DNA from: Bradyrhizobium sp. B124
GTDB taxonomy: Bacteria > Pseudomonadota > Alphaproteobacteria > Rhizobiales > Xanthobacteraceae
Length of the DNA stretch: 64,000 nucleotides
Direction of reading: 5' to 3'
Assembly: GCF_038967635.1 (NCBI RefSeq)
Contig: NZ_CP152413.1
Span: 6,080,001-6,144,000 of the forward strand
Shown one piece after another: positions 8,439 to 47,206 of this stretch. A model generated the notes under the pieces. That model made no database searches and was not told where the DNA came from. It was given only the letters and a program-made list of their open reading frames with translations. The stretch's first letter is position 1. The number at the start of each line of letters is the position of its first letter. The translations under genes and the position numbers were made by a program.

Positions 8439-8476
8439 CTTGTCCCGTAATCGGCCAGGCCGTGACCTGTGGGCCC

Positions 8477-12529: not shown

Positions 12530-14641
12530 ATGCCGCATCCGCTCGATTCCTTCTTCGCCCCAAAGAGCATCGCGCTGATCGGCGCCTCGCGCGATCACGA
12601 GAAGATTCCCGGGCGGCTGCTCGCGATGCTGCGCAAGAACGGCTATCCGGGCGGGCTCTATCCGATCAATCCGAACTATGACGAGATCGACGGGCTGAAA
12701 TGTTTCAAGTCGATCGCCGACGTCGTCGCGCCGATCGATCTTGCCGTCATCGTCATTCCAGCGCGCGCGGTGCTGCCGGCGCTGGAGCAATGCGCGGCTG
12801 CCGGCGTCAAGAACGCGGTCATCATTTCGTCCGGCTTTGCCGAGGAGGGCGGCGACAGCGCAGACATGCAGGACGCGATCGTGGCGCTGGCGAAGCGGAC
12901 GGGGATGCGGATCTCCGGTCCGAACGCCGAAGGGTTTTACAGCCAGGTGCAGAAGGTCGCCGCGACCTTCAGCCCGACCGTCGACGTCAAGCCGGATGCA
13001 CCTGACTTGGCTGCGAGCCAACGGCGGATCGGTATCGTCGCGCAGAGCGGCGGCATCGGCTTTGCGATCTATCATCGCGCCAAGGCGCTCGGTGTCGCGC
13101 TCAGCTATGTCGTGAGTGCCGGCAATGAGAGCGATCTCGGCGCCGGCGAGTTCCTCGACTACATGGTGCAGGATCCCGCGACCGACGTGATCCTGCTCTT
13201 CATCGAGGGCATCCGCGACGTCGACAAGTTTTTGGCGGCGGCGAAGCGCGCGGCAGAGCTCAGGAAGCCCGTCATCGTAACTAAAGTGGGCCGTTCCGGC
13301 GCCGGCGAGCGCGCGGCGGCCTCGCACACCGCGAGCATGGCGGGCTGGTCGGCGGCTTATGACGCGGTGTTCGCGAAATATGGCTTCATCGTCTCCAACG
13401 ACCTCGACGAGGCGGTGACGATTGCGGCCGTGTTGACCACCAATCCGCTGCCGAAGGGCGATCGCGTCGCGGTGCTGACGGTGTCCGGCGGCGCCGGCAT
13501 CTGGGGCGCCGATACGGTGTCGATGCAAGGCCTGCGTGTGCCGGAGCTCTCGGCCACGATTCAGAGCCAGATCAAGCAATGGATGCCGTCCTATGGCGCG
13601 GCGGGCAATCCGGTCGACGTCACTGCGCAGGGCGTCTCCTCCGGCGGCCTGCAGAAGAGCATCGAGCTGTTCGACGCGTCAGATGAAGTGGATGCGACCC
13701 TGGTCGTGCTGTCGCTGTCGAGCGAGACGCGGATGCCGTTCAAGGAGGCCGAGCTGAGGCCTCTGATCGCGGCGCAGAACAAGCCAGTGGTGTTCTATTC
13801 CTACACGCTGCCGTCGCCATTCGCGCGGCAGGAGCTCGCGAAGTCGGGCGTGGTGGTGCTCTCCGGGCTGACCCACGTCGGCGTCGCGATGCGGCGGCTG
13901 GCGGATTATGCCGCCTTCAGGCCCGCCCCCGAGATGGCGGCATCGGCCTCGCGGACGCACGATCTCTCCGCGCATCTCAGGGCGAAGACGCTGTCCGAAC
14001 ATGACAGCAAGGCGGTGTTGCGCGCGGCCGGCATCGCATTGCCGGACGAGGTGCTGGTGACCGACCGCGACGGGCTCGACGCGGCGATCGATCGGGCCGG
14101 ATTTCCGCTGGTCATGAAGATTCAGTCGCCTGACATCGCGCACAAGAGCGAGGTCGGCGGTGTCCGCGTCAACATCGCCGCCAAGGGCGCCGCGTTCACC
14201 GCCTATCGCGATATGCTGGAGAGCGTGCAGCAGCAGCGATCTGAAGCAAAAATCCAAGGCGTGCTGGTCGGGCCGATGGCCAAGAAGGGCGTCGAGATCA
14301 TCGTCGGCACCATGACGGATGCGACCTTTGGCCCGATGGTGATGGTGGGGCTCGGCGGCATTACCACCGAGCTGTTCAAGGACGTGGTCTATCGTCCGGC
14401 GCCGGTGAGCCCGCTAGAGGCGACCGCGATGCTGGAGACGCTGCAAGCCGCGCCGCTGCTGCACGGCTTCCGTGGCGCGCCGAAGGCCGATGTCGCGGCG
14501 CTCGCGCGGCTGATCTCGCAGATTTCAGTGCTGGCGGCGCAGCACCGCAGCGAGATCGCCGAGATCGAGGTCAATCCCGTGCTGGTACATCCGGAGGGGC
14601 AGGGCGTGACGATCGTCGATGCGCTGGTGGTGCCGAAATAG
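12530..14641 (+). CDS. ADP-forming acyl-CoA synthetase (acetate-CoA ligase family, fused alpha/beta)
   Basis: A fused NDP-forming acyl-CoA synthetase of about 703 residues that couples carboxylic acid plus CoA to ATP hydrolysis through a phosphohistidine. An N-terminal CoA-binding Rossmann domain (FFAPKSIALIGASRD) is followed by succinyl-CoA-ligase-like domains. The SHTASMAG segment carries the expected phosphorylated His. The C-terminal ATP-grasp domain starts about residue 470 (LSEHDSKAVLRAAGI) and includes HKSEVGGV. The ATG is preferred over a TTG five codons upstream. The last 88 nt are duplicated, in decayed form, 1.8 kb downstream beyond the peroxidase gene. The carboxylic acid substrate is unknown. 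Confidence 0.88.
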   Translation: MPHPLDSFFAPKSIALIGASRDHEKIPGRLLAMLRKNGYPGGLYPINPNYDEIDGLKCFKSIADVVAPIDLAVIVIPARAVLPALEQCAAAGVKNAVIISSGFAEEGGDSADMQDAIVALAKRTGMRISGPNAEGFYSQVQKVAATFSPTVDVKPDAPDLAASQRRIGIVAQSGGIGFAIYHRAKALGVALSYVVSAGNESDLGAGEFLDYMVQDPATDVILLFIEGIRDVDKFLAAAKRAAELRKPVIVTKVGRSGAGERAAASHTASMAGWSAAYDAVFAKYGFIVSNDLDEAVTIAAVLTTNPLPKGDRVAVLTVSGGAGIWGADTVSMQGLRVPELSATIQSQIKQWMPSYGAAGNPVDVTAQGVSSGGLQKSIELFDASDEVDATLVVLSLSSETRMPFKEAELRPLIAAQNKPVVFYSYTLPSPFARQELAKSGVVVLSGLTHVGVAMRRLADYAAFRPAPEMAASASRTHDLSAHLRAKTLSEHDSKAVLRAAGIALPDEVLVTDRDGLDAAIDRAGFPLVMKIQSPDIAHKSEVGGVRVNIAAKGAAFTAYRDMLESVQQQRSEAKIQGVLVGPMAKKGVEIIVGTMTDATFGPMVMVGLGGITTELFKDVVYRPAPVSPLEATAMLETLQAAPLLHGFRGAPKADVAALARLISQISVLAAQHRSEIAEIEVNPVLVHPEGQGVTIVDALVVPK

Positions 14642-30586: not shown

Positions 30587-31765
30587 TCATTTCACCCGGT
30601 GCAGCAATGCGACGAGTTCCGCCTGCCGATGCGTGCCGGTCTTCTGGAAAATCGTCTTGAGCTGATTGCGCGCGGTGGCAAGGGCAATGCCGGCTTCCCG
30701 TGCGGCCGCCTCGATCGAATCGCCGCGCGCAAGTCGCGTGGCAAGGCGCGCTTGCGCCGGCGTCAGCTCGAACGCCGCCGCCAGCAGCGCCTGATCGAAT
30801 GCGGCGTTGCCCTCGAGATCACGGATCAACAGGATCGCGCGCGCGCCCAAGAACGGTGAGCGTGCGGCCGGAGGCACCGGCTGCATCTGGATCACGATCG
30901 GCCGCTTGTCGATCCTGCGCACCACGATCGGCGATGTCGGGAGCGGGTGCAGGTCCGAGCTGTGGGCCAGCAGATCGATCAGCCTGGTCAGATCGATATT
31001 GGCCTGCCGGTCGAGCAAAGTGAGGCGGTTGTTGCGGATCGCAAGTTCATGGCCGAGGCAGGCTTCCGCCTGGCTGTTCATGCCGATGACGGCGCCGAAG
31101 CGGCCGACGGCAATCGCCGCGACCTGGATCAGGTCGAGCGCGCTGGTGATGCCCGAGATTGCGGAGCGCCCGACGACGGTGGACAGCGTCGCGGCTTCGG
31201 TCAGCCGCGCCGATATTCTCGAGAGTGCCTTGACCTCGTCGGCATCGAACATGCCTTCCTTTGGCGTGCGCTGGATGCTGAGTGCCCACAATGCCGGGCC
31301 GGCGCGGAAGCCGATCCCCGCGAACCATTTCAGCCCGAACTCGCCGAGCGTGGCATAGAGCGGGTCGCGCAGCATCTCGGTTTCGCCGCCGAACAGGTCG
31401 GCGTCGGTGATGACGTTGGTGCCGGCGAGCATCAGCGGCACGCCGCGCGCCGCGCGAATGTCGGTGAGATGAAAATTCTGCGGGAAGTAGGTCTTGGTGA
31501 AATAGTCGGTGATCGATTGCGTGCGCGGAATGTCTTCGGTGCGGATATCGCTCTGAAGCATCGCAGCCCCGGTCGCGCCGACGGCCGCGCAGACCTCGTC
31601 CATAAAGGACGGCCAGGTCGCGGGATCGAGAACCACGTCGCCAAGGCGCGCGGTCACGTCGTCCAGCCTGTGCACGTCGACCAAAGGCTCAGCTCCGCCT
31701 GATGCTGTTTTTGTTGTTTCACAGGACGAAACAGGTCGGACCCGTTTGCTCCCGCTACCGTGCAT
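30587..31765 (-). CDS. LuxR-type helix-turn-helix transcriptional regulator
   Basis: About 392 residues. The C-terminal 60 residues form a LuxR/GerE-type DNA-binding domain (FELTPAQARLATRLARGDSI ... ARNQLKTIFQKTGTHRQAEL). The long N-terminal part has no acyl-homoserine-lactone-binding pattern and contains a PAS-like stretch around residue 230. The start is unsettled: an ATG at 31765 has no ribosome site, while a TTG at 31684 has GGAG 8 nt upstream and would remove 27 residues. The effector and targets are unknown. It is convergent with nothing nearby and stands alone. Confidence 0.82.
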   Translation of the reverse strand: MHGSGSKRVRPVSSCETTKTASGGAEPLVDVHRLDDVTARLGDVVLDPATWPSFMDEVCAAVGATGAAMLQSDIRTEDIPRTQSITDYFTKTYFPQNFHLTDIRAARGVPLMLAGTNVITDADLFGGETEMLRDPLYATLGEFGLKWFAGIGFRAGPALWALSIQRTPKEGMFDADEVKALSRISARLTEAATLSTVVGRSAISGITSALDLIQVAAIAVGRFGAVIGMNSQAEACLGHELAIRNNRLTLLDRQANIDLTRLIDLLAHSSDLHPLPTSPIVVRRIDKRPIVIQMQPVPPAARSPFLGARAILLIRDLEGNAAFDQALLAAAFELTPAQARLATRLARGDSIEAAAREAGIALATARNQLKTIFQKTGTHRQAELVALLHRVK

Positions 31766-31878
31766 AAGAAAGCCCGGACCGCCAGATATGCAAGCTAAAT
31801 CAGCGGCACGGCCGAGGGGCGGGCCCGCAAACCCTGACGAAACATGATCGAAAATCGGCGAGTGGCGCGAGCCCACCG

Positions 31879-32553
31879 CTACAGCAAATGCAGATCCCGG
31901 CGGCGATCGGCCTCGGTCAATGCCACGCGGCAGAAGCTGGCGGCGATCGCGACGACGTCCTCGACGGCTTGCGGATATTGCTTCGAGACCCAGCGCAGCG
32001 CGATCGAGATGACCGCGCCGACCATGCCGATCGAGAGCAGCGTGGCAGCCGCGGCCTTGTCGCCGTGTTTGGGATCGAGCGTCGGCGGCACCAGGATGTC
32101 GCTGAAGACGCGCAGGGCGTCGAGCTTGACGGCGTCGACCGCCGGACTGATGCCGGAAATCTCGAGCAGGAAGACCCGCGCGGGCTTCGGGTGCTCCTTC
32201 AAACGCGTGAAATACAGCGTCAGCGCGGCGCGCAGCCTCATCTCGGCATCACCGCCGGCGGCCGCCGCGGCAGCCGTCATCTCCTCGTGGAGGTGGCCGA
32301 CGACATGGTTGTAGGCGGCGATCAGCAGGGCTTCGCTGTTGGAAAAGGATTCGTAGAAATAGCGTTCGGTGAGCTCGGCCGCCTCGCAGATCGCCTTCAC
32401 GGTGGCGACCCGATAGCCGACCTCGCCATAGACCTCGATCGCCGCATCGATCAGCTTCAGCCGCCGCTCGGCGCGGCGTTCCTCGGCGTCCATACCGCCA
32501 TAGAGGCGGGCTTTCCGGCTGCTTGCCATGAAATGTGTATTGACACGCGCCAT
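31879..32553 (-). CDS. TetR-family transcriptional regulator
   Basis: 224 residues. The N-terminal helix-turn-helix is AAIEVYGEVGYRVATVKAIC ... AELTERYFYESFSNSEALL, and the rest is an all-helical ligand domain. Divergent from an EthA-like monooxygenase, like EthR/EthA in mycobacteria. A perfect inverted repeat overlaps the first codon, so autorepression is likely. If the ATG at 32553 is used the mRNA would be almost leaderless; an ATG eight codons later is the alternative. The inducing ligand is probably a substrate of the neighbouring enzyme. Confidence 0.88.
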   Translation of the reverse strand: MARVNTHFMASSRKARLYGGMDAEERRAERRLKLIDAAIEVYGEVGYRVATVKAICEAAELTERYFYESFSNSEALLIAAYNHVVGHLHEEMTAAAAAAGGDAEMRLRAALTLYFTRLKEHPKPARVFLLEISGISPAVDAVKLDALRVFSDILVPPTLDPKHGDKAAAATLLSIGMVGAVISIALRWVSKQYPQAVEDVVAIAASFCRVALTEADRRRDLHLL

Positions 32554-32578
32554 TGTCAGATGTCAAGTTATCTGACAA
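32553..32578. promoter_or_regulatory. Probable TetR operator in the regulator/monooxygenase intergenic region
   Basis: Perfect 9-nt arms TTGTCAGAT and ATCTGACAA flank an 8-nt spacer GTCAAGTT. A further partial half-site GATTGTCAA lies a few bases to the right. The site starts at the regulator's first codon and is 37 nt before the monooxygenase ATG, suited to repress both genes. Confidence 0.68.
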
Positions 32579-32614
32579 TACAGATTGTCAATTCTGTCGC
32601 GGGAGGGTCAGGGC

Positions 32615-34120
32615 ATGTCTGCTCATTTCGACGTGTTGATCGTGGGTGCCGGGCTGTCGGGCATCGGTGCCGCCTATCATCTGCAGGCCAACTGCCCGGA
32701 CCGCAGCTACGCCATTCTCGAAGGCCGCGATTGCATCGGCGGGACCTGGGACCTATTCCGCTATCCCGGCATCCGCTCCGACTCCGACATGTACACGCTC
32801 GGCTATTCGTTCCGGCCCTGGACCGAGCCGAAGGCGATCGCCGATGGCCCGTCGATCCTGAATTATGTGCGCGAGACCGCGCGCATGTACGGCATCGACA
32901 AGAACATCCGCTTCAACCACCGCGTGGTGCGCGCCGACTGGTCGTCGGCCGACTCGCAATGGACAGTCGAGGTCGAGCGCGGGCCGGAGAAGACGATCGA
33001 GCGTCTCACCTGCAGCTTCCTGTTCATGTGCAGCGGCTACTACAAGTATGAGCACGGCTACACGCCTGACTTCCCCGGCATCGCCGATTTCGCCGGCCGC
33101 GTCGTCCACCCGCAGAAGTGGACCGATGACATCGACTATGCCGGCAAGAACGTGGTGGTGATCGGCAGCGGCGCGACCGCGGTGACGCTGGTGCCGGAAA
33201 TGGCCAAGACCGCCGCCCATGTCACGATGCTGCAGCGTTCGCCGACCTATGTCGTGGCGCGGCCCGACGAGGACAAGGTCGCCAACTGGCTGCGGGCGCG
33301 GCTGCCCGCAAAACTCGCTTACGGCCTCACGCGCTGGAAGAACGTGCTGTTCGGCATGTATTTCTACCGGCTCTGCAAGCGCGATCCGGAGCGCGTGAAG
33401 AAGCTGATCCTCGGCGGCGTGCGCCACGCGCTTGGCCCCGATTACGACGTCGCCACCCATTTTACGCCGAGCTACAATCCGTGGGACCAGCGGCTCTGCC
33501 TGGTCCCGAACGGCGATCTCTTCCAATCGCTGCGCAGCGGCGGCTCGTCTGTCGTGACCGACCAGATCGAGACCTTCACGCGTGGGGGCATCAAGCTCAA
33601 GAGCGGCAATGTGCTCGATGCCGACGTCGTGGTGACCGCGACCGGCCTCGATCTTCAGGTGCTCGGCGGGCTCGAGATCAAGGTCGACGGCGTGCCGGTC
33701 GATCTGTCGAAGACCATGAACTACAAGGGGCTGATGTATTCGGGCGTGCCGAATCTCGCCGCGGCCTTCGGCTACACCAACGCATCCTGGACGCTGAAAT
33801 GCGACCTGACCTGCGAATATGTCTGCCGCATGCTCAACCACATGAAGGCGAACGGCTACGCGCAAGTGACGCCGCGGCGGAACGATCCGACCGTGGCCGA
33901 ACTGCCCTGGGTGGATTTCTCCTCGGGCTATATCCAGCGCGCCGCCGCCAGGTTCCCCAAACAGGGCTCGCGCCGGCCGTGGCGGCTCTACCAGAACTAT
34001 GCGCTCGATATCATGACGCTGCGTTTCGGCTCGCTGAAGGACGAGGCGATCGAGTTTCTGCCGGCGCGCCGGGCCAGCGCGGCGAATGCTGCTGCGAATC
34101 CGGCCCGGCAGGTGGCGTAG
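32615..34120 (+). CDS. FAD/NADPH-dependent Baeyer-Villiger monooxygenase (EthA-like)
   Basis: 501 residues. FAD-binding GAGLSGIGAA is near residue 10. The Baeyer-Villiger fingerprint region reads FAGRVVHPQKWTDDIDYAGK, followed by the second nucleotide motif VVVIGSGATAV, closely following EthA of mycobacteria (489 residues). It inserts oxygen into ketones or oxidises sulfur and nitrogen centres; the natural substrate is unknown. Strong ribosome site GGGAGGG. Divergent from a TetR gene with a shared operator. A family D repeat follows the gene. Confidence 0.9.
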   Translation: MSAHFDVLIVGAGLSGIGAAYHLQANCPDRSYAILEGRDCIGGTWDLFRYPGIRSDSDMYTLGYSFRPWTEPKAIADGPSILNYVRETARMYGIDKNIRFNHRVVRADWSSADSQWTVEVERGPEKTIERLTCSFLFMCSGYYKYEHGYTPDFPGIADFAGRVVHPQKWTDDIDYAGKNVVVIGSGATAVTLVPEMAKTAAHVTMLQRSPTYVVARPDEDKVANWLRARLPAKLAYGLTRWKNVLFGMYFYRLCKRDPERVKKLILGGVRHALGPDYDVATHFTPSYNPWDQRLCLVPNGDLFQSLRSGGSSVVTDQIETFTRGGIKLKSGNVLDADVVVTATGLDLQVLGGLEIKVDGVPVDLSKTMNYKGLMYSGVPNLAAAFGYTNASWTLKCDLTCEYVCRMLNHMKANGYAQVTPRRNDPTVAELPWVDFSSGYIQRAAARFPKQGSRRPWRLYQNYALDIMTLRFGSLKDEAIEFLPARRASAANAAANPARQVA

Positions 34121-34159
34121 CGCGCGCAGCGCCGAACTCAGCGCAACTTCGCGCCCGCC

Positions 34160-34262
34160 TCGAGCAGCGGTTCTGATTGGATCAGAACCGCTGCCCTAGC
34201 TTCTTGTTTTGACGCGTTTTCTTCACACGAACCGGCGCCCACTTCGCTCGAATACGCTCTAG
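34160..34262. repeat. Dispersed repeat, family D (inverted orientation)
   Basis: The hairpin comes first (arms GCAGCGGTTCTGAT and ATCAGAACCGCTGC with loop TGG at 34164-34194), followed by TTTTGACGCGTTTTCTTCAC and CCACTTCGCTCG, the reverse complement of the family D body. It lies between the monooxygenase and tRNA-Arg, and the hairpin may terminate the monooxygenase transcript. Confidence 0.78.
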
Positions 34263-34338
34263 TGTGGCGCGGGCTGGCGATCATTCGGCACCTCTGCTAT
34301 GGGAGGGCGACGCCCGCATGCTTTGCAGCGGGCGGTGC

Positions 34339-34415
34339 GGTCCCGTAGCTCAGCCGGATAGAGCGACGGTTTCCTAAACCGTAGGTCGGAAGTTCGAGTC
34401 TTCCCGGGATCGCCA
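34339..34415 (+). tRNA. tRNA-Arg (anticodon CCU)
   Basis: Cloverleaf read by eye: acceptor GGTCCCG pairs with CGGGATC (one G-T), D-stem GCTC/GAGC, anticodon stem ACGGT/ACCGT with loop TTCCTAA (anticodon CCT), and T-stem GGAAG/CTTCC with loop TTCGAGT. The discriminator is G and the CCA end is encoded. Reads AGG codons. tRNA-Arg genes are common integration sites, and a short patch of different composition follows directly. Confidence 0.95.
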
Positions 34416-34565
34416 TTTTTCCGATGAAAGAAACCCAACATTTACCGGCGTGCTTTGCGATTTCGCTTTTTGTACGGCCGTTGACGCGTCGGACCTCGCG
34501 AACCGTTCGGGGGCGTATTGGGGGCACGGCGCGAAGCGGGCGTGGGGTCGGATTGGAATAATGTC

Positions 34566-35141
34566 ATGTCGTTGATGCCCTGCTTCAAGGAGTCCGAGGC
34601 CTTTCAGGAGGGCGTCATACTCGGGCGGTTGCTAGCCGGCTACGGCGAAGTCGAGACCTCGATGCTGAACTGCCTCGTCGACGTGGAAGGCCAGTTCGTC
34701 ACTCCAATCAAGGAGCTGTTCGGCGTCAGGTCTGCCGAGCGTAGGATCACGATTGCGGGCAAGCTGCTCACGCCCGAATTGACCAAGGCGGGGCTACAAA
34801 CTGAGCTCGCAAATGTGCTCGATGACATGGATTGGTGCCGGCAGATCAGGAACCAGTACGCGCACTGCACATGGTACTGGACCAGCCATGAAGGCCTGTG
34901 CTTCGTCAATCTTGAAGAGCTGGCGGGGCAGGGCTCATTCACGAGCCTCTTCGCCAACAAGCAGCCCATCGACGTCGCACTGCTGTCCGCCCAAGAAGAC
35001 TTCTTCAACTACGTCAAGGAAAGCTTCTTCCATCTTGGGAGCGCGTATAAAGATTGGGACATGAAGCGGGTTGACTCTAGGCGAACAGTCTACGTTTTCC
35101 CGAAGCCTCAGCTGGTATCTCGCCCAGCTTTGCACAACTGA
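34566..35141 (+). CDS. Protein of unknown function in tRNA-adjacent patch
   Basis: 191 residues, soluble, no signal peptide or membrane segment. Contains CFKESEAFQEGVILGRLLAG and a DMDWCRQIRNQYAHCTWYW stretch; an Arg-Asn-x-x-x-His arrangement (RNQYAH) recalls HEPN-like or RiboL-PSP motifs, but the match is too short to assign. Codon use is visibly less GC-biased than the neighbours, which suggests acquisition with the adjacent tRNA as site. ATG follows GGAATAATGTC; an upstream TTG in frame is less likely. Confidence 0.6.
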   Translation: MSLMPCFKESEAFQEGVILGRLLAGYGEVETSMLNCLVDVEGQFVTPIKELFGVRSAERRITIAGKLLTPELTKAGLQTELANVLDDMDWCRQIRNQYAHCTWYWTSHEGLCFVNLEELAGQGSFTSLFANKQPIDVALLSAQEDFFNYVKESFFHLGSAYKDWDMKRVDSRRTVYVFPKPQLVSRPALHN

Positions 35142-35147
35142 GATTAT

Positions 35148-35177
35148 CGTTCGGGCGATCCAGAGATCGCCCGAACG
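35148..35177. terminator. Perfect hairpin between two convergent unknown genes
   Basis: Arms CGTTCGGGCGATC and GATCGCCCGAACG with loop CAGA. It starts 7 nt after the stop of the plus-strand gene and ends 13 nt before the stop of the minus-strand gene. No T-run follows on either side, but its position suggests 3'-end formation. Confidence 0.65.
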
Positions 35178-35189
35178 CGCCGTATCAGT

Positions 35190-35372
35190 TTACGCCGAGC
35201 GTCTTGAAGCAGCGATCTGCTTGCTTCCGACGTGCGCCTTCTCCTTCAGCACGTGGTTCACAGCGCGCACGTTGATGACATAAGCAGCGGCGATCTGGTG
35301 CTGGTACTGACCGGCCCAATATCGCAGCCACACGTCGATGGCTTCGTCCTCAGTGAACTTGGTCTTGTTCAA
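35190..35372 (-). CDS. Small DNA-binding-like protein of unknown function
   Basis: 60 residues from a TTG start: contains KTKFTEDEAIDVWLRYWAG and QHQIAAAYVINVRAVNHVLK, a helix-turn-helix-like pattern seen in small accessory-region proteins. The TTG is chosen because GAGGA lies 8 nt upstream; a longer reading back to 35471 or 35531 is open but has no ribosome site. Less GC-rich than flanking core genes. Function is not known; a DNA-binding role is inferred only from the helix pattern. Confidence 0.45.
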   Translation of the reverse strand: MNKTKFTEDEAIDVWLRYWAGQYQHQIAAAYVINVRAVNHVLKEKAHVGSKQIAASRRSA

Positions 35373-35779
35373 CGTCTCGGTCCTCGTATCGGACCCTTGA
35401 CCTTTCCGAATCACAGACGCACTGTTACCTCTGGTGAACACAGAAGGTCTTAGGGCCTCAGGTGTGGACATGAAGACCGGGCAGCCTGGGGAGGTGTCGC
35501 CCGGTTTTTTCATGAGCAGGCGAATCGCCACCTACCAAGGTCAATTCTACGCATGCGGGAACCACGGAGTCCCGCTTTGTTCGCTTTTCCCGGTTATGCA
35601 CAGGCCGCGACAGAGGTCTGGAAAACTCTGCTGCCGAGCAAGTGGCCGGTTGGCCGCCGCCGCCCACCGCGAGGCGCAGGTACCTGCGTTCCCGGTCTGC
35701 CGGGCGTCCGCCCCTCAGTTCACCCCAAATTAGGGAAAGCCCGGGACAATGGGGAGGGGGCCACCGGAAAACCGCGCGC
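35373..35779. other. Gap between the tRNA-adjacent patch and the arabinose cluster
   Basis: About 400 nt without a supported gene. It holds one terminator-like hairpin (35476-35510) and a stretch GTACCTGCGTTCC... with no open frame of good codon use. It probably contains the cluster's promoter, but no -35/-10 pair is convincing by eye. Confidence 0.5.
35476..35510 (+). terminator. Hairpin followed by a T-run
   Basis: ACCGGGC and GCCCGGT pair around a 22-nt loop region, then six T residues follow. This is a terminator layout on the plus strand, though no plus-strand gene ends just upstream. It could be a relic of a lost gene or an attenuator in the leader of the downstream cluster. Confidence 0.45.
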
Positions 35780-37189
35780 ATGCGAGCCAGCGTTCCAGAA
35801 CGGGTTGAAGAGGGCGGCAGCGACGCCCTTCGCGATCCGCTGCGCTCGAAGGGCCGGCCGCTCGTTGTCGATGTCGACGAGGTGATGGTCCCGCGAAGCT
35901 CCTTCCCGGCGGATATCGCTTCCGAGATCGCTGGCCGCTTTCGCGCCGTCACCACGGCGATCGCCACCGCCTTGGGACTGGCAGCGCGTATTGCCGATGC
36001 ATCGGGCTTCGATCCATCCCGCGCACGGTTCGACCACGACGTTGTGACCTTCCTTTTGCAGGTGCTGGGCGAAGGCCGCCCGGTCTATCTCTGTTCGGAA
36101 ACCCATCCCGAGCCGTTCGTCAGCGCGGTTGCCCAGCATCTCGGCGTCTTCACAGCCTGGGCTGCCGCTTCGGGCGGCCGTTCGCCCGCTTCGCGGAGCG
36201 ACGACCTGCCGCCCGTGCTCCGGCACGGCTTCGACTACATCGGCGGCGAAGCGGTTGCGCTGCCCGGCTTCGCGTCACGCGTGGCGGGCCCCGGTCGATC
36301 CGCCCCGGCTGCACCTGCGCCGGCCGGTGTGCGCAGCTGGCTGAAGCTGCTTCGGGTGCATCAATATGCGAAGAACGCTCTCGTGCTGGTGCCGTTGCTG
36401 ACCGCGCATAAATTTGCATTCGGGTCGGCGGCGACGTCGCTGTTTGCGGTGATCGCATTCTCGCTCTGTGCGTCGGCCGCCTACATCCTGAACGACATTC
36501 TCGACATCAACGCCGACCGCGCCCATCCGGCCAAGCGCAACCGTCCGATTGCAAGCGGCGCCATCGCGGCGCCGCAAGCTGCCGGCGCGATGGCCCTGGC
36601 ATTAGTCGCCGCGTTCGTGATCGCACTGTGCATATCGGTCGAATTCAGCGGCGTCCTGCTCGGCTATTTCGCGCTGACCACATCCTATTCATTGTGGCTC
36701 AAGCGCATTGCGATCGTCGACGTCGTCGTGCTGGCGACGCTTTACACCGTCCGCGTGATCGGCGGCGCGGTCGCGATCAGCGTGCCGATGTCGGAATGGC
36801 TGCTCGCGTTCTCGCTGTTCATCTTCATGTCGCTGGCGCTGGTGAAGCGCCATATCGAACTCGCGAGCCAGCCGGACGGCGCGGTGCTGGCTGCGCGCGG
36901 CTACCGGATCGAAGACAAGTCGATGGTCGCGATCCTCGCCGCCGCGTCGGGCTTCAATGCCGTCGTGATCTTCACGCTCTACATCTCGTCCGATACGGTT
37001 CGCGCGCTCTACAGCCATCCGCAACTGCTCTGGGCCTGCTGTCCGATCCTGATGTACTGGATCGGCCGCGTGATGCTGTTCGCGCAACGCGGATTGATCG
37101 ATGATGATCCGGTGATGTTCGCGCTCCGCGATCGCGCCAGCTGGGTCGCGCTTGGCGCGATCGGCGTCATCATGCTCGCCGCCATCTAG
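35780..37189 (+). CDS. UbiA-family prenyltransferase with degenerate N-terminal HAD domain (DPPR synthase / NoeC-like)
   Basis: 469 residues. The C-terminal 280 are a multi-pass UbiA domain with N238-D239-x2-D242-x3-D246 (LNDILDINADRAHP) and RPIASG, matching decaprenyl-phosphate 5-phosphoribosyltransferase (first step of polyprenyl-phospho-arabinose synthesis) and Azorhizobium NoeC. The N-terminal 165 residues align with the HAD phosphatase domain often fused to this group, but are degraded: DVDEV (31-35) replaces DxDGT, and the motif IV region reads FDYIGGEAVAL without the metal-binding Asp pair. Start ATG has a weak ribosome site. Followed after 2 nt by the DprE1-like gene. Confidence 0.85.
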   Translation: MRASVPERVEEGGSDALRDPLRSKGRPLVVDVDEVMVPRSSFPADIASEIAGRFRAVTTAIATALGLAARIADASGFDPSRARFDHDVVTFLLQVLGEGRPVYLCSETHPEPFVSAVAQHLGVFTAWAAASGGRSPASRSDDLPPVLRHGFDYIGGEAVALPGFASRVAGPGRSAPAAPAPAGVRSWLKLLRVHQYAKNALVLVPLLTAHKFAFGSAATSLFAVIAFSLCASAAYILNDILDINADRAHPAKRNRPIASGAIAAPQAAGAMALALVAAFVIALCISVEFSGVLLGYFALTTSYSLWLKRIAIVDVVVLATLYTVRVIGGAVAISVPMSEWLLAFSLFIFMSLALVKRHIELASQPDGAVLAARGYRIEDKSMVAILAAASGFNAVVIFTLYISSDTVRALYSHPQLLWACCPILMYWIGRVMLFAQRGLIDDDPVMFALRDRASWVALGAIGVIMLAAI

Positions 37190-37191
37190 CG

Positions 37192-38577
37192 ATGCCGACC
37201 GTAGCGTTGTCAGGACGTGCAAGCGGGATCTCCGATCCAGGCGGGATTCGTCTCTCCGGCTGGGGCAACTATCCCAAAATATCGACCGAACTGCTGGCGC
37301 CGCAGTCGCCCGCAGCCGCACGGGATGATCTGCTCGGGCGCTCCGGCGTCGTCGCCCGCGGAGCGGGCCGCGCCTATGGCGATGCGGCGATCGGCACGCA
37401 AGCCACGATCTCGTCGCGCGGCCTGAACCGGATGCGGCGCTTCGATGCCGCGACCGCCCAGTTGACGATTGAAGCCGGCGTGACCATCGCCGACATCCTT
37501 GCCGCGTTCGAGCCGCGCGGCTTCTTCCTGAAAGTCGTGCCCGGCACGAAATTGGTGACGGTCGGGGGCGCGATCGCGGCCGACGTTCATGGCAAGAACC
37601 ACCATCGCGACGGCGGCTTCGGCACGATCGTCGATTCATTCCGCCTTGCGTTGCCCGGCGGTGAGATCGTTTGCTGCTCAAGGTCGGAGAACGTCGCGCT
37701 GTTCGCGGCGACGCTGGGCGGCATGGGCCTGACCGGCATGATCCTCGACGCGACACTGCGGCTGCTTCCGATCGAGACGGCCTGGCTGCGGCAGGACACG
37801 CGCGTCGCCGGCAATCTCGACGCGGCGATCGATCAGTTGGAAAGCAACGCGTCCTCGACCTATTCGGTGGCATGGATCGACTGCCTTGCGCGCGGCGCGG
37901 CGCTCGGACGGTCGCTGGTCTATCTGGCCGAGCATGCCACGCGCCGCGACATCGATAGGTTGGGGCCCGACCTCGCGCCGTTCCCCAACCCTCGCACCCA
38001 GCGTCTGTCAGTGCCGGAGCTGTTTCCCGCTTGGTTGCTCAATCGCGCATCGATGCGGATGTTCAACGAGCTGTATTTCCGTCGCGGCGCCGCGCACCAG
38101 GGTGAGCCGCGGCTCGTCCACTGGAATCCCTATTTCTTTCCGCTCGATGCGATCGCCGACTGGAACAGGATCTACGGCCGGCGCGGCTTCGTGCAGTACC
38201 AATGCGTGATCCCGCTCGAGCGCGCCCGCCGCGTGCTTGCCGACATCCTGGATCGGGTGTCCCGGCGCGGCGATGCGTCGTTTCTTGCGGTGCTCAAGCA
38301 GCTCGGCGACGGCGGCGGGCCGATGTCGTTTCCGCTGCGCGGCTACACCCTGACGATGGACTTTCCCGTCAGCGACACGCTGTTCGCGTTTCTCGATCAG
38401 CTCGACGCGCTGGTGGTCGATGCCGGCGGCCGGCTCTACCTCGCCAAGGACGCGCGGCAATCCCGCGCGACATTCGAATCCGGATATCCCGGCCTTGCGG
38501 CCCTGCGGGACATCCGCCAGCAGACCGGGGCGACCACGCGCCTTGCGTCCCATCTTTCAGCACGGCTTGGAATTTGA
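37192..38577 (+). CDS. DprE1-like FAD-dependent oxidase (polyprenylphosphoryl-ribose 2'-oxidation)
   Basis: 461 residues, end-to-end similar to mycobacterial DprE1, which oxidises decaprenylphosphoryl-ribose to the 2-keto form. Shared marks: RGAGRAYGD (56-64), VPGTK and TVGGAIAADVHGKNHH (to residue 138) for FAD, FVQYQCVIP, MSFPLRGYT and LYLAKDAR with K419 for the catalytic Lys. The position of the well-known DprE1 Cys387 is Thr388 here (LTMDFP). Tightly coupled: 2 nt after the UbiA gene and sharing one base with the next start. Polyprenyl chain length and product are inferred. Confidence 0.87.
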   Translation: MPTVALSGRASGISDPGGIRLSGWGNYPKISTELLAPQSPAAARDDLLGRSGVVARGAGRAYGDAAIGTQATISSRGLNRMRRFDAATAQLTIEAGVTIADILAAFEPRGFFLKVVPGTKLVTVGGAIAADVHGKNHHRDGGFGTIVDSFRLALPGGEIVCCSRSENVALFAATLGGMGLTGMILDATLRLLPIETAWLRQDTRVAGNLDAAIDQLESNASSTYSVAWIDCLARGAALGRSLVYLAEHATRRDIDRLGPDLAPFPNPRTQRLSVPELFPAWLLNRASMRMFNELYFRRGAAHQGEPRLVHWNPYFFPLDAIADWNRIYGRRGFVQYQCVIPLERARRVLADILDRVSRRGDASFLAVLKQLGDGGGPMSFPLRGYTLTMDFPVSDTLFAFLDQLDALVVDAGGRLYLAKDARQSRATFESGYPGLAALRDIRQQTGATTRLASHLSARLGI

Positions 38578-39323
38578 TGACCGGCACAAAATCAATTTTG
38601 GTGATTGGCGGCAGCTCGGATATCGGGCACGCGACTGCGCTGCGTTATGCGAAGGAGGGGTGGCGCGTGACGCTCGCCGCCCGCGATCTTGCGGCCGCGC
38701 AGCGCAACGCGGACGATATCAGGACGCGAAGCGGCGTCGACACAACGGTTCAGTCGCTCGACGTGCTGCAGACCGGGCAGCTTGCCGGCTTCGTCGCCGG
38801 CCTTTCCGTGCTTCCGGACACCGTCGTGTGCGTTGTCGGAGAACTCGGCGATCAACTGCGTGCCCAGACCGATCCCGAGCTTGCGACGACAATCATACGG
38901 ACCAATTTCGAGGCCCCCAGCCTGCTGCTCGAACAGTTCGCGCAAGCCTTCGCGGCGCGCGGCTCGGGAACGATTGTCGGGGTCAGCTCGGTCGCCGGCG
39001 ATCGCGGGCGGGCGTCGAACTACTACTACGGCGCGGCCAAGGCCGGCTTCACGCAATTCCTGTCCGGCCTGCGCAACCGCCTCGCGCTCGCGGGCAAGGT
39101 CCGCGTCGTCACCGTCAAGCCCGGATTCGTGCGCACCAAGATGACGGCGCATATGAAGCTGCCGGCGCCCCTGACCGTGCAGCCGGATCGGGTCGCGGAG
39201 GATATCTACCGGGCCGACGTGACGAGGCCGCGGGACGTGATCTATGTGGCCAGGCGATTTTGGCTCGTGATGGCGATCATCTGCGCGCTGCCGGAGACGA
39301 TCTTCAAGCGGATGCGCATCTGA
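38577..39323 (+). CDS. DprE2-like short-chain dehydrogenase (2-keto-ribose to arabinose reduction)
   Basis: 248-residue SDR. The start (ILVIGGSSDIGHATALRYAK), the SSVAGDRGRASNYYYGAAKAG active site, VRVVTVKPGFVRTKMTAHMK and the unusual C-terminal membrane-associating helix ending ALPETIFKRMRI follow Rv3791 (DprE2) rather than ordinary SDRs. It would reduce the keto-sugar to polyprenylphosphoryl-D-arabinose. The ATG overlaps the upstream stop by one base (TGATG). Its last 20 nt overlap the 3' end of the convergent GT87 gene. Confidence 0.87.
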   Translation: MTGTKSILVIGGSSDIGHATALRYAKEGWRVTLAARDLAAAQRNADDIRTRSGVDTTVQSLDVLQTGQLAGFVAGLSVLPDTVVCVVGELGDQLRAQTDPELATTIIRTNFEAPSLLLEQFAQAFAARGSGTIVGVSSVAGDRGRASNYYYGAAKAGFTQFLSGLRNRLALAGKVRVVTVKPGFVRTKMTAHMKLPAPLTVQPDRVAEDIYRADVTRPRDVIYVARRFWLVMAIICALPETIFKRMRI

Positions 39324-40557
39324 CGCTGGCTTCGCTGATTGCTTCCGCTCTTGAGCTGCGTAGCAGCACAATTCCGACAATGAGCGCGATCAGCGGAATG
39401 ATCGCGAAGCCGCCGATCGAGAGCGTGCCGAGTGACTGCGCACCCGGGTGAGCGGTCGTCATCTGCGTCGCTTGCAGGTAGCCGAACGCTCCGATCGGGA
39501 TCGGCAAGGCGTAGATGATGCCTCGTTCCCACTCTCGCGCGCTCGCCAGCAGCGCCGGCAACAGCAGCGCCAGGCCGACGCTGAAGATCAGAAAGTCGTA
39601 GTCGTAGGCGTAAGGGCTGATGCAAACCGACACGATCGCAACCAGGCCGAGGCGCTCGCGCGCAGGTATCGCCCGGAAGGCGGCGATGAGAACGACGGCA
39701 AGCGCCAGGACCGCAACAGTGCCCTGGGCGACAAACGCTGTCGACGCGGACATCCCTGCCGTTCGCAACGCGGCATAGATCGAGATCATGCGATGCATCG
39801 GGTAATTCCCTTGCCCCAGGAACACCGACGAATCGCGCACGCTCTGCAGGAACGCGCTCCAGATCTCCGCGCCGAAAACCGCCGTGCAGATCGCTGAGCT
39901 GATCAGCACGACGGCGGCCGCAATTATCACCACGATCCAGGAACGCCGCAGCATGGCGTAGACCGCGAACGCGATGGCGAGATGCGGCTTGATGATCATC
40001 AGACCGAGGGCGGCCCCGGCGAGGATTGGCCGCTCTTCAAAAAACAGACAGACCATTCCGATCAGCGCGGCGGTCAACAGGCCGTTCTGTCCGCAGGCCA
40101 GCGTGATCCCGATGGTCGGAAAGAAGACGATGAGCAGGAGCACAAAGTTCTCGCCTGCGAGACGGCGCAGCACGGCAAGGTAAAGCGCCAGCGTCGAGGC
40201 GGCGAACAGCAGATAGGCAATCCCGACCGGAATCAGCGCGAACGGCGCCAGCAGCAGGCTGAACTGCGGCGGATAGGTCCACGACATGAAGCCATCGTGC
40301 CCGCCCGATGCCTCCCTCTGGATGACGATAAGCTTCGCGAACTGATAGGCCTGATCCACGGTGCCCAGCCACACCAGCTTTGCGGTGATGTAGAAGGCGG
40401 CAAAGTCGACGAGCTCGCGGCCATGCCCGAGCCCCACTTGGGTGAGCCACACCGCCTTGAAGACGATGGCGATGACCAGGAGCGCGAGGATTCCACGGAT
40501 GTAGGCGGTCCGCTTCGACGTGGTCGACCGAATTGCTTCGAGGGTAGTTGCGAACAT
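39304..40557 (-). CDS. GT87-type membrane glycosyltransferase (DUF2029, GT-C fold)
   Basis: 417 residues with about ten hydrophobic segments, a polyprenyl-phosphate-sugar-dependent glycosyltransferase layout. The first loop carries ELVDFAAFYITAKLVWLG with the acidic D typical of GT-C catalytic loops, then GFMSWTYPPQFSLLLAPF. The family includes PimE-type mannosyltransferases. Its convergent overlap with the DprE2-like gene and the flanking donor pathway suggest it uses polyprenyl-phospho-arabinose. The acceptor (lipid, LPS, hopanoid, glycan or Nod-type molecule) is unknown. An ATG directly after a TTG is taken as start. Confidence 0.8.
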   Translation of the reverse strand: MFATTLEAIRSTTSKRTAYIRGILALLVIAIVFKAVWLTQVGLGHGRELVDFAAFYITAKLVWLGTVDQAYQFAKLIVIQREASGGHDGFMSWTYPPQFSLLLAPFALIPVGIAYLLFAASTLALYLAVLRRLAGENFVLLLIVFFPTIGITLACGQNGLLTAALIGMVCLFFEERPILAGAALGLMIIKPHLAIAFAVYAMLRRSWIVVIIAAAVVLISSAICTAVFGAEIWSAFLQSVRDSSVFLGQGNYPMHRMISIYAALRTAGMSASTAFVAQGTVAVLALAVVLIAAFRAIPARERLGLVAIVSVCISPYAYDYDFLIFSVGLALLLPALLASAREWERGIIYALPIPIGAFGYLQATQMTTAHPGAQSLGTLSIGGFAIIPLIALIVGIVLLRSSRAEAISEASVRCASA

Positions 40558-40780
40558 CAAGCCGGGCCCTGTTTCGGCCGTTCAGGCTAGGTCGAATAGG
40601 TTAAGCAGTCGAAAAATCGCGCAGGAGAGCGTGGTTCGGCGCCTGTCGCCTGACAGCCGCCGGGACACATCACATCGGCCCGTGCGGGCGTTGCCGGAAC
40701 CGGGCGGTATCTTGGTGCAGGGGTGCGACTTTCGCTGGAGCTCCGTCGGCGGCAGTGATAACGGCTGGGGAAACCATCTC

Positions 40781-41629
40781 ATGACGGGCCGCATGCCGAA
40801 ACCTCCGCCTCCTTCCCATCGCGGGCCCAGCCCACCCCCGGCTCTGCAACGCGCCATGGTCGCGTTGCAGATGGGGCAGGTCGTCGAAGCCGAGCGGCTG
40901 GCGGCGGAGGTGTTGAAGGCAAACCGGACCGATGTCGGCGCGGCCTCGATCCTGGCACGGGCGCTGATGGCCCAGCGGCGCAACGAGGAGGCGATCGCGC
41001 CGCTCGAGCGCGCCACGCGCCGCGTCGAGGATGCCGGCCTCGAAACCCTGCTCGGCGCGGCACTCGGCGGCGCCGGTCGCCGCAGCGAGGCAATCGATCT
41101 GTTGCGGCGAACCACCGCGCGGCGGCCGCCGTTCCTTCCCGCATTTCAGGAGTTGGCAGGGCAATTGGCCGCGGCCGGCCGCTTCGACGAGGCGGTTGCC
41201 GTCATCGATAGCGCGCTTGCTCTCGCGCCCGCAAGCCTCGAATTGCAGCTCCTGCTCGCGCAGATCCTGCCCCATCGCAATGAGCGCGGCCGCGCGCGCG
41301 AGATTCTGGAGAAGCTGCGCACGGTGGCGCCGGGCCATCCCGATATTCTGGCCGCGCTCGCGCGCGTGCTGCTGCTCGATGGCGAATACGCGGCTGCGGC
41401 GGATCTCTACCGCCAAGTGCTGGCGCAGCGCCCCGACGATCCCCTGACGCGTACCAGCTTCTCCGCCTGTCTCCTGGAAATGGGCGACCGCGCTGCCGGC
41501 GAAGCCAATCTGCGTCTGGCGCTGCGCGGCCGGCCGCAAATGATCGGCCGCACCACGTCCGCGCTGGCCATGGCATCGCATGGCCGCTTCTTCTTCCGTC
41601 CCAGCGCAGTTGCGAAATTTCTGAGCTAA
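40781..41629 (+). CDS. Tetratricopeptide-repeat protein
   Basis: 282 residues: a Pro-rich start (MTGRMPKPPPPSHRG) and then about six TPR-like helical pairs, e.g. ALQRAMVALQMGQVVEAERL, NEEAIAPLERATRR, RSEAIDLLRRT and FDEAVAVIDSALALAPAS. A C-terminal extension follows (ALAMASHGRFFFRPSAVAKFLS). TPR proteins are usually scaffolds; no partner is evident. The ATG has GGGGAAACCATCTC upstream. It may be linked to the glycosylation cluster upstream by position only. Confidence 0.8.
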   Translation: MTGRMPKPPPPSHRGPSPPPALQRAMVALQMGQVVEAERLAAEVLKANRTDVGAASILARALMAQRRNEEAIAPLERATRRVEDAGLETLLGAALGGAGRRSEAIDLLRRTTARRPPFLPAFQELAGQLAAAGRFDEAVAVIDSALALAPASLELQLLLAQILPHRNERGRAREILEKLRTVAPGHPDILAALARVLLLDGEYAAAADLYRQVLAQRPDDPLTRTSFSACLLEMGDRAAGEANLRLALRGRPQMIGRTTSALAMASHGRFFFRPSAVAKFLS

Positions 41630-41698
41630 GCAAGGCTCGGGCAAATCGTGTCGCGAGACTGTGGGTCTATGATTCACAAGCGGCGCAACACACTCGGT

Positions 41699-41821
41699 GT
41701 CGTCCCTGCGCAAGCAGGGACCCATAACCACAGCTAGTCATTGTTGTGCGATCGTGGAATGACGAGTCTCGTTCACAATTCGGGCCGCGGAGTATGGGTC
41801 CCTGCTTGCGCAGGGACGACG
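41699..41821. repeat. Dispersed inverted repeat, family B
   Basis: Opens GTCGTCCCTGCGCAAGCAGG and closes TGCTTGCGCAGGGACGAC, so the outer 20 nt are nearly perfect complements. It lies between the TPR gene and a convergent unknown gene and likely folds in the 3' ends of both transcripts. Confidence 0.78.
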
Positions 41822-41862
41822 AATGGAGGGAGCCGCCCCGAACGCGGCCACGCCCGCCCGCT

Positions 41863-42576
41863 CTAGGTCCGAAACTGGCGGCGATAGAGTCCGGGCTCGC
41901 GGGCCATCCTGTTGGACAGTTCCTGTGCGCGCGACGTTTCATCCGGCGTCATCGCCGCGGTCTGCGCGACCCAGTTTTCGCGCTTCACCGGGAAACATTG
42001 CGCAACCGGCGTGCCCTTGGGCAAGGTGCCGCTGAAATTGGTGTCGTGCCAGCGCGCCGGGAAATGAATCCAGCTGTCGTGAAACTGATCGCAATCGACC
42101 ATGCCGGTCAGTGTGGTGAACGGCAGGTCGAACCGATTGACCGGATGGGTGAAGAACAGCGAGTAGCCCGCCGGCGCCTCGATGGTCCACAGATTGACGA
42201 ACTTGATGAGGAAGCGGTCCTGTTCGAACAGCGGCGAGCCGATCACCTGGCTTTCGTCGTGGAATCCGACCGGCGAGCGCGGGAATTCGAGCACGCCCCC
42301 GGACGGAAGGTCGTTGTCCCATGTGATCTCGCCATTCTCGATCTTGAGATCGCAGACCAGCGGCATCAGGAAGCCCGATGTCATCGCATCGACGAATGGC
42401 GGGCAGCGCTTGACGGTATCCTCCTCGCGGTTGCTCATCGCATTGAAGGCCTGCGTCGGCATCGCCTTGAGCCATCCGGGAAGGCCCAATGACGCAGGCA
42501 CTGGCGCTGGAATCTTACCCTCGAGCTCCGCTGGGCAGCGGAATTTGATGGCTAACGCTTCGTTGTTGTTGGACAC
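41863..42576 (-). CDS. Conserved protein of unknown function (DUF6065-like)
   Basis: 237 residues, soluble. The strongly patterned parts are LPGWLKAMPTQAFNAMSNRE, KRCPPFVDAMTSGFLMPLVC, SLFFTHPVNRFDLPFTTLTG and LPKGTPVAQCFPVKRENW. I recognise the pattern as a conserved family of unknown role, sometimes near glycan genes or phages. No catalytic set is evident. GTG start, with AAGGG 7 nt upstream. It stands alone on the minus strand. Confidence 0.6.
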   Translation of the reverse strand: MSNNNEALAIKFRCPAELEGKIPAPVPASLGLPGWLKAMPTQAFNAMSNREEDTVKRCPPFVDAMTSGFLMPLVCDLKIENGEITWDNDLPSGGVLEFPRSPVGFHDESQVIGSPLFEQDRFLIKFVNLWTIEAPAGYSLFFTHPVNRFDLPFTTLTGMVDCDQFHDSWIHFPARWHDTNFSGTLPKGTPVAQCFPVKRENWVAQTAAMTPDETSRAQELSNRMAREPGLYRRQFRT

Positions 42577-45736: not shown

Positions 45737-47206
45737 ATGGAACATCCGCTTCGCGTCGGCGAGTTCTTGCCCTCCGATGCGCCGGTTGCCGCCGCCGACG
45801 CCGAGATCGCCGCGCCGCCGGCGGAGGCCGTGGCACCGCTGCCGCCATTGCCGAACCTGCCGGCGACCGACGTTGAGTTCCTGCGGCCGCAGGACGCGCA
45901 CTATGCGGATTACCTGCCTGCCGCGAGCAAGCGCAAGCAATTGGCACCGGCGCTGCGTGCGGTCTGCAAGACCGAGCACGCGGTTGCCGTGATGGTCGAC
46001 TGGGTGCGCAGCAACGGATTGAGCTTCGCCGTTCGCTGCGGCGGGCATTCCTATGAAGGCCTGTCGCAATCGTCCGGGGTTGCGATCGACGTGCGTGGAT
46101 TGAAGCAGATTGTGGTCGACAAGGCCTCGAACCTCGTCACGGCAGGCTCCGGCGTATCGCTCTACGAGCTCTATTCCGCGTTGGCCGCCCAGGGCCTCGC
46201 ACTGCAGGCAGGGAGTTGCCCGACCGTCGGCATCTCCGGTCATCTCACCGGCGGTGGCCACGGCCTGCTCGCGCGCTCGCATGGACTGACCTGCGACGGC
46301 CTGCTGCAGGCGAATGTCGTCGACGCCCAGGCGCGTGTGCTGCAGGCCAATGCGACATCGGAGCCGGACCTCTGGTGGGCCTGCCGCGGCGGCGGTGGTG
46401 GCAGCTTCGGCATCGCGACCGAGTTCAGGATCGAGGTGTTTCCCCTGAAGACGGCGCGGGTGTTCGGTGTCTCCTGGAAACTGTCGCAGGCCCACGCCGC
46501 GCAATTGTTCGCCGCCTGGCAGGACTGGGCGCCGAATGCGCCGTCGAACATCACCTCGATCATGAAGGTCGGCCCGGCCGGCCACGGCCTGATCACGATG
46601 CGCTGCATTGGCCAGTCGGTCGGCAGCGAGAGCGAGCTGCGCAGCGAACTCCGGCGATTGACGGCGGTGCGGCCGCCGTCATCGGCGCTGTCGGTGCAAT
46701 CGCTCGCCTTCCTCGATGCGGTCAAGCACTTTGCCGGACCGCTCGCCTACGAGTCGGTGCTGATGAAGGCGAAGTCGGACTACGTGCTGACGCCGCTCGC
46801 CTCCGACGGCATCGAAGCCATGATGGCGGCGGTCGCGCCGATCGCGCCGGGCGGCATCGTGCTGCTGTGCGATTCCTATGGCGGTCGGATCGCCGATGTT
46901 GCCGCCGACGCCACCGCATTCCCGCGCCGCGCCGGCACGCAGTACTGTATCCAGTACTTCTCGAGCTGGAGCCGATCCGCCGACACCGCGGCGCATCTCG
47001 CTGACGTCGCGAGGGTCTATGCGGCGATGCGCCCTTTCATGCCGGGCGCGTCCTACGTCAATTATTGCGATCTCGACCTCGACGGCTATGCGTCAGCCTA
47101 TTGGGGCAACAACCTCGCCCGGCTGGTCGCGGTGAAGCAGCAATACGATCCCGATGATCTGTTCCACCACGCCCAAAGCGTGCCGCTCAGCGTCCCGACG
47201 GCATGA
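45737..47206 (+). CDS. FAD-linked oxidase with bicovalent flavin motifs (BBE-like)
   Basis: 489 residues of the VAO/berberine-bridge-enzyme type. Likely bicovalent FAD links are His104 in RCGGHSYEG and Cys161 in GSCPTVGISGHL. The C-terminal BBE segment contains YVNYCDLDLDGYASAYWG. An Ala/Pro-rich leader of about 45 residues precedes the catalytic domain; no clear signal peptide is seen. Such oxidases act on sugars, alcohols or alkaloid-like amines; the substrate is unknown. It sits between the DAO-like gene and a convergent RoxA-like gene. Confidence 0.85.
   Translation: MEHPLRVGEFLPSDAPVAAADAEIAAPPAEAVAPLPPLPNLPATDVEFLRPQDAHYADYLPAASKRKQLAPALRAVCKTEHAVAVMVDWVRSNGLSFAVRCGGHSYEGLSQSSGVAIDVRGLKQIVVDKASNLVTAGSGVSLYELYSALAAQGLALQAGSCPTVGISGHLTGGGHGLLARSHGLTCDGLLQANVVDAQARVLQANATSEPDLWWACRGGGGGSFGIATEFRIEVFPLKTARVFGVSWKLSQAHAAQLFAAWQDWAPNAPSNITSIMKVGPAGHGLITMRCIGQSVGSESELRSELRRLTAVRPPSSALSVQSLAFLDAVKHFAGPLAYESVLMKAKSDYVLTPLASDGIEAMMAAVAPIAPGGIVLLCDSYGGRIADVAADATAFPRRAGTQYCIQYFSSWSRSADTAAHLADVARVYAAMRPFMPGASYVNYCDLDLDGYASAYWGNNLARLVAVKQQYDPDDLFHHAQSVPLSVPTA

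Follow-up and report, generated by a model that had tools for sequence, protein, structure and literature searches.

D-Arabinofuranose is a sugar familiar chiefly from the walls of mycobacteria. The closest described counterpart of the system that we report here is Gram-negative, as Kelly et al. 2024 (PMC11127046) described three-component pentofuranosylation systems in Gram-negative bacteria, among them Citrobacter youngae O1/O2, which combine a polyprenyl-phosphate 5-phosphoribosyltransferase (PPPRS), an epimerase, and a GT-C transferase, and named homologues of DprE1 and DprE2 in arabinofuranose-containing systems. We analyzed a window of 64,000 nucleotides from Bradyrhizobium sp. B124 (contig NZ_CP152413.1, positions 6,080,001 to 6,144,000; the genome is a single contig of 9.17 Mb) in which a cluster at 35780-40557 encodes a HAD-UbiA fusion, a DprE1-like protein, and a DprE2-like protein head to tail, followed by a convergent gene for a GT87 glycosyltransferase. 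By families and folds, this is a PPPRS paired with a GT-C transferase, as in three-component pentofuranosylation.

With the Citrobacter system the locus shares the HAD-UbiA fusion (PPPRS plus phosphatase domain), the optional epimerase step, and the GT-C transferase, but it has GT87 in place of GT136 and DprE1/DprE2 in place of ORF13, its HAD domain is degenerate, and no linked flippase was found and no O-antigen genes were seen nearby (PMC11127046). Compared with the mycobacterial decaprenylphosphoryl-arabinose (DPA) pathway (Rv3806c, DprE1, DprE2, Emb/Aft), it differs by the HAD fusion, the linked GT87, a Thr for the DprE1 Cys, and the absence of a GtrA-like match in the window. Rhizobial noeCNHOP genes show the same order of UbiA, DprE1, and DprE2, but include noeP and have a gtrA at the noeN position, lie beside nodABC, and belong to another DprE1 branch (PMC2443382, PMC5080398); moreover, noeC of Sinorhizobium alkalisoli has no HAD match. 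A preliminary description of the window had called the pathway mycobacterial-type, for which the Gram-negative HAD-UbiA/epimerase/GT-C system is the better reference (PMC11127046), given that DprE1 relatives are present in many proteobacteria and in other phyla and that, among solved folds, the GT87 comes nearest to PimE and not to the mycobacterial arabinosyltransferases. The kind of chemistry is already known (PMC11127046; for noe, PMC2443382 and PMC5080398), whereas the pairing with GT87 and the hints toward Tad pili discussed below look new: GT87 is unmentioned in the main text of PMC11127046, and among the titles and abstract openings listed from the open PMC literature on arabinose in Bradyrhizobium, on glycosylation of Tad or Flp pilins, and on GT87 arabinosyltransferases, there was no report of the GT87 pairing, of the two locus types, or of the Tad link.

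We propose, with a probability of roughly two in three, that the operon of three genes directs the synthesis of polyprenyl-phosphoryl-D-arabinofuranose at the inner membrane, that an unlinked transporter would flip this lipid-linked arabinose, and that the convergent GT87, as a periplasmic GT-C enzyme, would then move D-arabinofuranose from that donor to an acceptor in the envelope. Sequences and predicted structures show the enzyme families, the UbiA active-site motif, the GT-C fold of GT87, and the conserved linkage and co-occurrence, whereas the identity of the sugar, the donor used by GT87, the phosphatase, the flippase, and the acceptor are inferences.

Enzymes of the proposed donor operon

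The first gene (35780-37189, plus strand; PF01040, 78.6 bits), whose ATG at 35780 matches the starts in close homologues, encodes a protein with the UbiA fold and the NDxxDxxxD active-site motif, and a fold search places its predicted structure closest to DPPR synthase, so that we regard it as a PPPRS/DPPR synthase-like enzyme. It reaches 458.5 bits against NF006088 ("UbiA family prenyltransferase"; cut-off, 351), but 144.5 bits against a cut-off of 234 for NF008977, the best of three NCBIfam models for decaprenyl-phosphate phosphoribosyltransferase.

HAD phosphoribose phosphatase domains carry a DxDx(T) motif, a motif III Lys, and a motif IV Asp. By alignment, the first ~175 residues of the UbiA protein are the counterpart of the Citrobacter HAD phosphatase domain, and alignment and a motif table delimit a degenerate HAD-like domain of the phosphoribose phosphatase type at 35855-36310 (plus strand; limits approximate), in which the nucleophile Asp is retained while the Thr, the motif III Lys, and the motif IV (metal) Asp are gone; the complete motif set occurs in 6 of 39 aligned homologues, the window protein not among them. 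A Pfam scan gave no HAD match in the window protein, the Paracoccus homologue matches PF12710 and PF00702, and a fold search with the whole protein returned a list filled by UbiA, with HAD rows at E ~0.3 only. The phosphatase partner that the preliminary description had suggested looking for is thus accounted for in part, by a fused domain of the HAD phosphatase type whose motifs are degenerate. The Citrobacter HAD domain takes off the 5-phosphate, and because its nucleophile mutant still formed some dephosphorylated product (PMC11127046), it is possible, by analogy, that weak HAD activity or a separate phosphatase performs this step here.

The second gene (37192-38577, plus strand; PF01565 [FAD_binding_4], 61.8 bits) encodes the putative polyprenyl-phospho-ribose 2'-oxidase. 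It scores 397.8 bits against NF053785 over residues 20 to 460, nearly its full length, although below the curated equivalog cut-off of 500, and the nine best PDB rows are all DprE1 (4aut at 4.2e-85). At the position where the window protein has Thr, DprE1 of 4aut has a Cys, which we take to be the residue that reacts with benzothiazinones. The third gene (38577-39323, plus strand; PF00106 [adh_short], 105.7 bits) encodes a short-chain dehydrogenase/reductase, the putative 2-keto reductase, which stays below the equivalog cut-off of NF053786 (171.2 bits against 250) and exceeds the cut-off of NF005489 (335.3 bits against 267); in the PDB it matches the DprE2 chain of 21gq best (5e-26), and the next entry lies at 3e-14. 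The UbiA and DprE1 genes are separated by 2 nucleotides (TAG-CG-ATG) and the DprE1 and DprE2 genes overlap by 1 (TGATG), while the GT87 gene (39304-40557, minus strand; PF09594, 119.6 bits, cut-off 25) runs convergently and overlaps the DprE2 gene by 20. The four genes, their families, and the close spacing of the first three are thus as the preliminary description had them, and gene families, motifs, and folds support its view of a three-gene donor pathway with an adjoining GT-C transferase.

A flippase would have to be encoded elsewhere. In three annotated plasmid loci (the S. alkalisoli noe locus, Paracoccus, and Rhizobium leguminosarum), as well as in many others, gtrA lies between ubiA and dprE1, whereas the window locus and its nine kin have no gtrA in that position, GtrA has no match in the window, and no transporter family appears among the ten window proteins scanned at 30587-42576. 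The genome has a single GtrA-domain match, which falls in a 445-residue frame outside the window (C1:2157191). No linked flippase of the MATE, SMR, or GtrA kind was found, MATE not having been searched genome-wide. The noeN position of S. alkalisoli (L125:8597-9019) holds a gene for a membrane protein of the GtrA family (PF04138, 36.4 bits); noeN of Rhizobium IRBG74 was proposed as a phosphatase (PMC5080398), but the S. alkalisoli gene, whose equivalence to that noeN is suggested by gene order only, suits a flippase better.

Distribution of the locus and of GT87

Among 146 Bradyrhizobium genomes, a DprE1 at least 87% identical to that of the window (the window locus type, its own genome counted) occurs in ten. 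All ten keep the arrangement, with GT87 adjoining DprE2 in seven and one extra gene between them in three, and with the GT87 gene cut off by a contig end in one (G049). The same arrangement is present in named Bradyrhizobium altum, whose strain Pear77 has the closest named DprE1 among the matches listed (94%), and names on close UbiA and GT87 homologues include B. elkanii, B. pachyrhizi, B. tropiciagri, and B. mercantei. In 58 of the 146 genomes DprE1 is 51 to 59% identical to the window's and belongs to another locus type; G099 (65%) and G083 (59%) were counted separately. In three loci of this other type that were read closely (L118, L121, and L124), dprE1-dprE2 directly follow uppP, and the HAD-UbiA gene directly precedes rnd and, within each stretch's reach, lptC-lptA-lptB. 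The corresponding region of our own genome (L189) runs uppP, NDUFA9-like, MFS, and rnd-lptCAB and shows no pathway genes in the part examined, nor does the examined part of this region in G118, G099, G083, G003, G031, G053, or G076. We therefore reject a single, vertically inherited Bradyrhizobium locus, since our own genome lacks, in that region, the genes that the three closely read other-type genomes hold there. In a DprE1 tree (quick method; support is SH-aLRT only) the window type groups with G099 (99), apart from the other type, which groups with G083 (99), and apart from noeH, and no second strong DprE1 match was found in any of the 70 genomes with a strong DprE1 (at most 11 candidates scored per genome). 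Bradyrhizobium thus has two diverged DPA locus types, which appears to be new.

Within the genus GT87 co-occurs with the pathway. Of the 146 genomes, 49 encode a GT87 of the window type that scores 200 bits or more, and a strong DprE1 accompanies it in 48 of these, compared with 22 of the 97 genomes that lack such a GT87. In 5 of 69 non-Bradyrhizobium loci, out of 80 DprE1 loci that were retained in all, GT87 genes of the window kind lie no more than ~6 kb from DprE2, namely, in Paenirhodobacter (two copies), Novosphingobium, Erythrobacter, Solirhodobacter, and Microvirga aerophila, and these proteins are 40 to 47% identical to the window's over the matched stretch and 33 to 48% over the whole alignment; the linkage therefore recurs in six alphaproteobacterial genera, Bradyrhizobium among them. 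A genome of the class-wide sample (G202) has a weaker GT87 (124 bits) 1.4 kb from DprE1. The DprE1 of G083 clusters with that of the other locus type, yet the trees assign the GT87 adjoining its cluster to the branch of the window. G047 and G017 (L135 and L143) have additional GT87 copies from this family beside a LysR regulator and genes that, judged by eye, are Calvin-cycle-like.

The last enzyme may be exchangeable. In G010, G042, and G138 a gene for an extra membrane protein (533 residues in G010) directly follows DprE2 within the operon, and G099, which has no strong GT87, carries a 62% relative of the G010 gene in the convergent position. By eye, the G010 protein is multi-spanning and GT-C-like; it has no Pfam match and no match in our own genome, and it is possible that it represents a new GT-C family. 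The module as a whole resembles a constant donor pathway whose final enzyme can be swapped, and in it these proteins would serve as transferases. This Pfam-less multi-spanning protein travels with the arabinose operon in all four genomes (for example, L108:12026-13627 and L114:6919-8409), and a 39% relative lies beside dprE1 in Heliomarina (L055). A Paracoccus plasmid encodes three consecutive related membrane proteins of 503 to 549 residues between dprE2 and a GT87 gene (L126:11098-15814); the one checked has no Pfam match, and related genes occur on a Rhizobium plasmid.

Around the cluster, ~1.27 kb between a monooxygenase gene and ubiA (34420-35693) has no DNA match in ten other loci of the same type (L025 and L105-L113) and contains a 207-residue frame without a Pfam match, with no notable flanking repeats. 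A search for the empty site of the cluster by way of this monooxygenase was fruitless, as relatives of the monooxygenase gene lie among different genes in the five 20-kb stretches inspected. A further FAD-linked oxidase gene (FAD_binding_4 plus BBE) lies ~7 kb downstream, at 45737-47206, and differs in domain make-up from the DprE1 gene.

Alternative readings and the nodulation genes

Several observations weigh against our proposal and must be set against the linkage. The nearest solved fold of the window GT87 is PimE, a GT87 mannosyltransferase (PDB 9dm5; 16% identity), and not the mycobacterial arabinosyltransferases; a PDB search by sequence gave no real match (best E value, 0.05). Family (PF09594) and GT-C fold of the PimE type are clear. 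G003 has GT87 without the pathway, the sole exception among the 49, and across the class, Bradyrhizobium excluded, the co-occurrence of GT87 with DprE1 did not reach significance. The operon could hence make polyprenyl-phosphate-arabinose while GT87 uses another donor, such as polyprenyl-phosphate-mannose, the true arabinosyltransferase being encoded elsewhere; the pairing of the G099 pathway with a different GT-C-like gene would fit, and the GtrA-domain protein of our own genome could serve a route to a hexose donor. We think this rather unlikely in view of the co-occurrence in 48 of 49 genomes and of a linkage that recurs across six genera. It is also conceivable that the substrate of the enzymes is a related lipid and that the product is not D-arabinose but, for example, a ribose form used directly or another epimer, as the sugar is assigned from sequence alone, the DprE1 and DprE2 scores fall under curated cut-offs, and a published GT-C of this kind takes ribose and xylose (PMC11127046); with DprE1- and DprE2-like genes together in 10 of 10 window-type loci, we consider this very unlikely.

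The genes might, finally, be a noeCHOP-like set for Nod-factor arabinosylation displaced from the nod genes. The host genome does carry nodA, NodA is encoded in nine of the ten window-type genomes, and noeC, noeH, and noeO are homologous to the pathway genes. The preliminary description, which mentioned the Azorhizobium noe genes, saw no nod genes here, and this holds for NodA in the window, the sole nod protein searched. Our own nodA lies at contig position 8071391, ~1.95 Mb from the cluster, and in the window genome, G118, G010, and G070 the two are on one contig and at least 1.9 Mb apart, so that the cluster does not belong to a symbiosis island in these four. NodA (>200 bits) was found in 84 of the 146 genomes, 50 with both it and a strong DprE1, 20 with DprE1 only (the window-type G069 included), 34 with NodA only, and 42 with neither (P = 0.0014, uncorrected); the pathway does not simply track with nod genes. 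The window has no match to noeP or gtrA/noeN, and DprE1 clusters apart from noeH. On this tree placement and gene content we reject the Nod-factor reading, which we regard as extremely improbable.

Clues to the acceptor

Two clues to the acceptor of the proposed D-arabinofuranose transfer diverge, the first being that the other locus type has uppP and lpt genes as neighbours and the second that GT87 kin occur in loci for Tad pili. Among 20 GT87 regions chosen from 55 strong GT87 matches, three (G003, G036, and G068) place GT87 proteins, 45 to 48% identical to the window's over the match, in such loci, and the GT87 tree unites these proteins in a single branch (99/90). In G003 the gene stands between two Flp-like pilin frames, followed by genes for prepilin peptidase, RcpC/CpaB, a CpaE-like ATPase, T2SSE, T2SSF, and TadE; in G036, HAD-UbiA, GT87, and two Flp-like pilins occur together with Tad genes, and transposase-like frames (by eye) lie between them; and in G068 GT87 accompanies a secretin and Tad genes. 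The Flp-like pilins of L137 and L145 were so called from visual inspection and gene context; Pfam gave no match for two frames of L145 and one of L137, the L145 neighbours are confirmed as prepilin peptidase, RcpC, T2SSE, T2SSF, and TadE, and L137 holds members of the same clusters. The G036 locus (L137) has a second HAD-UbiA gene at 7523-8878 and two Flp-like pilin frames at 13836-14402, with GT87 adjoining. Within 20 kb around each of the three Flp pilin loci of our own genome there is no GT87 or UbiA match.

These loci would fit a GT87 that forms a pentose-transferring branch O-arabinofuranosylating pilin-type proteins, fed by the operon in Bradyrhizobium and with sister enzymes inside Tad clusters, an idea that we consider unlikely. 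A D-arabinofuranose pathway serves pilin in Pseudomonas Pa5196, although its TfpW is another GT-C enzyme, its pilin is type IVa rather than Tad, and the pilus link here is found in relatives only (PMC12369383). If the idea were true, D-arabinosylated Tad pili would be a rhizobial trait parallel to Pa5196 pilin glycosylation. Tad pili of B. diazoefficiens affect biofilm formation, and the main text of that report contains no word with the stem "glycos" (PMC12918737). Alternatively, and with regard to the acceptor only, so that its odds overlap those of our main explanation, lipopolysaccharide or another envelope glycolipid and not a protein may receive the sugar, a reading to which we give somewhat less than even odds. 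In the published prototype it is O antigens that are decorated (PMC11127046), and the three closely read other-type genomes hold the same genes between uppP and rnd-lptC-lptA-lptB; these neighbours may, however, be accidental, no lipopolysaccharide protein is among the ten scanned proteins of 30587-42576 (the four cluster genes aside), and the three GT87 kin in Tad loci point elsewhere.

In Bradyrhizobium, a large genus of plant symbionts, a conserved donor pathway paired with GT87 would mean that GT87 is not confined to hexoses and would offer another test system for DprE1 chemistry. It would also point to two steps, the phosphatase and the flippase, and to one acceptor as the missing pieces.

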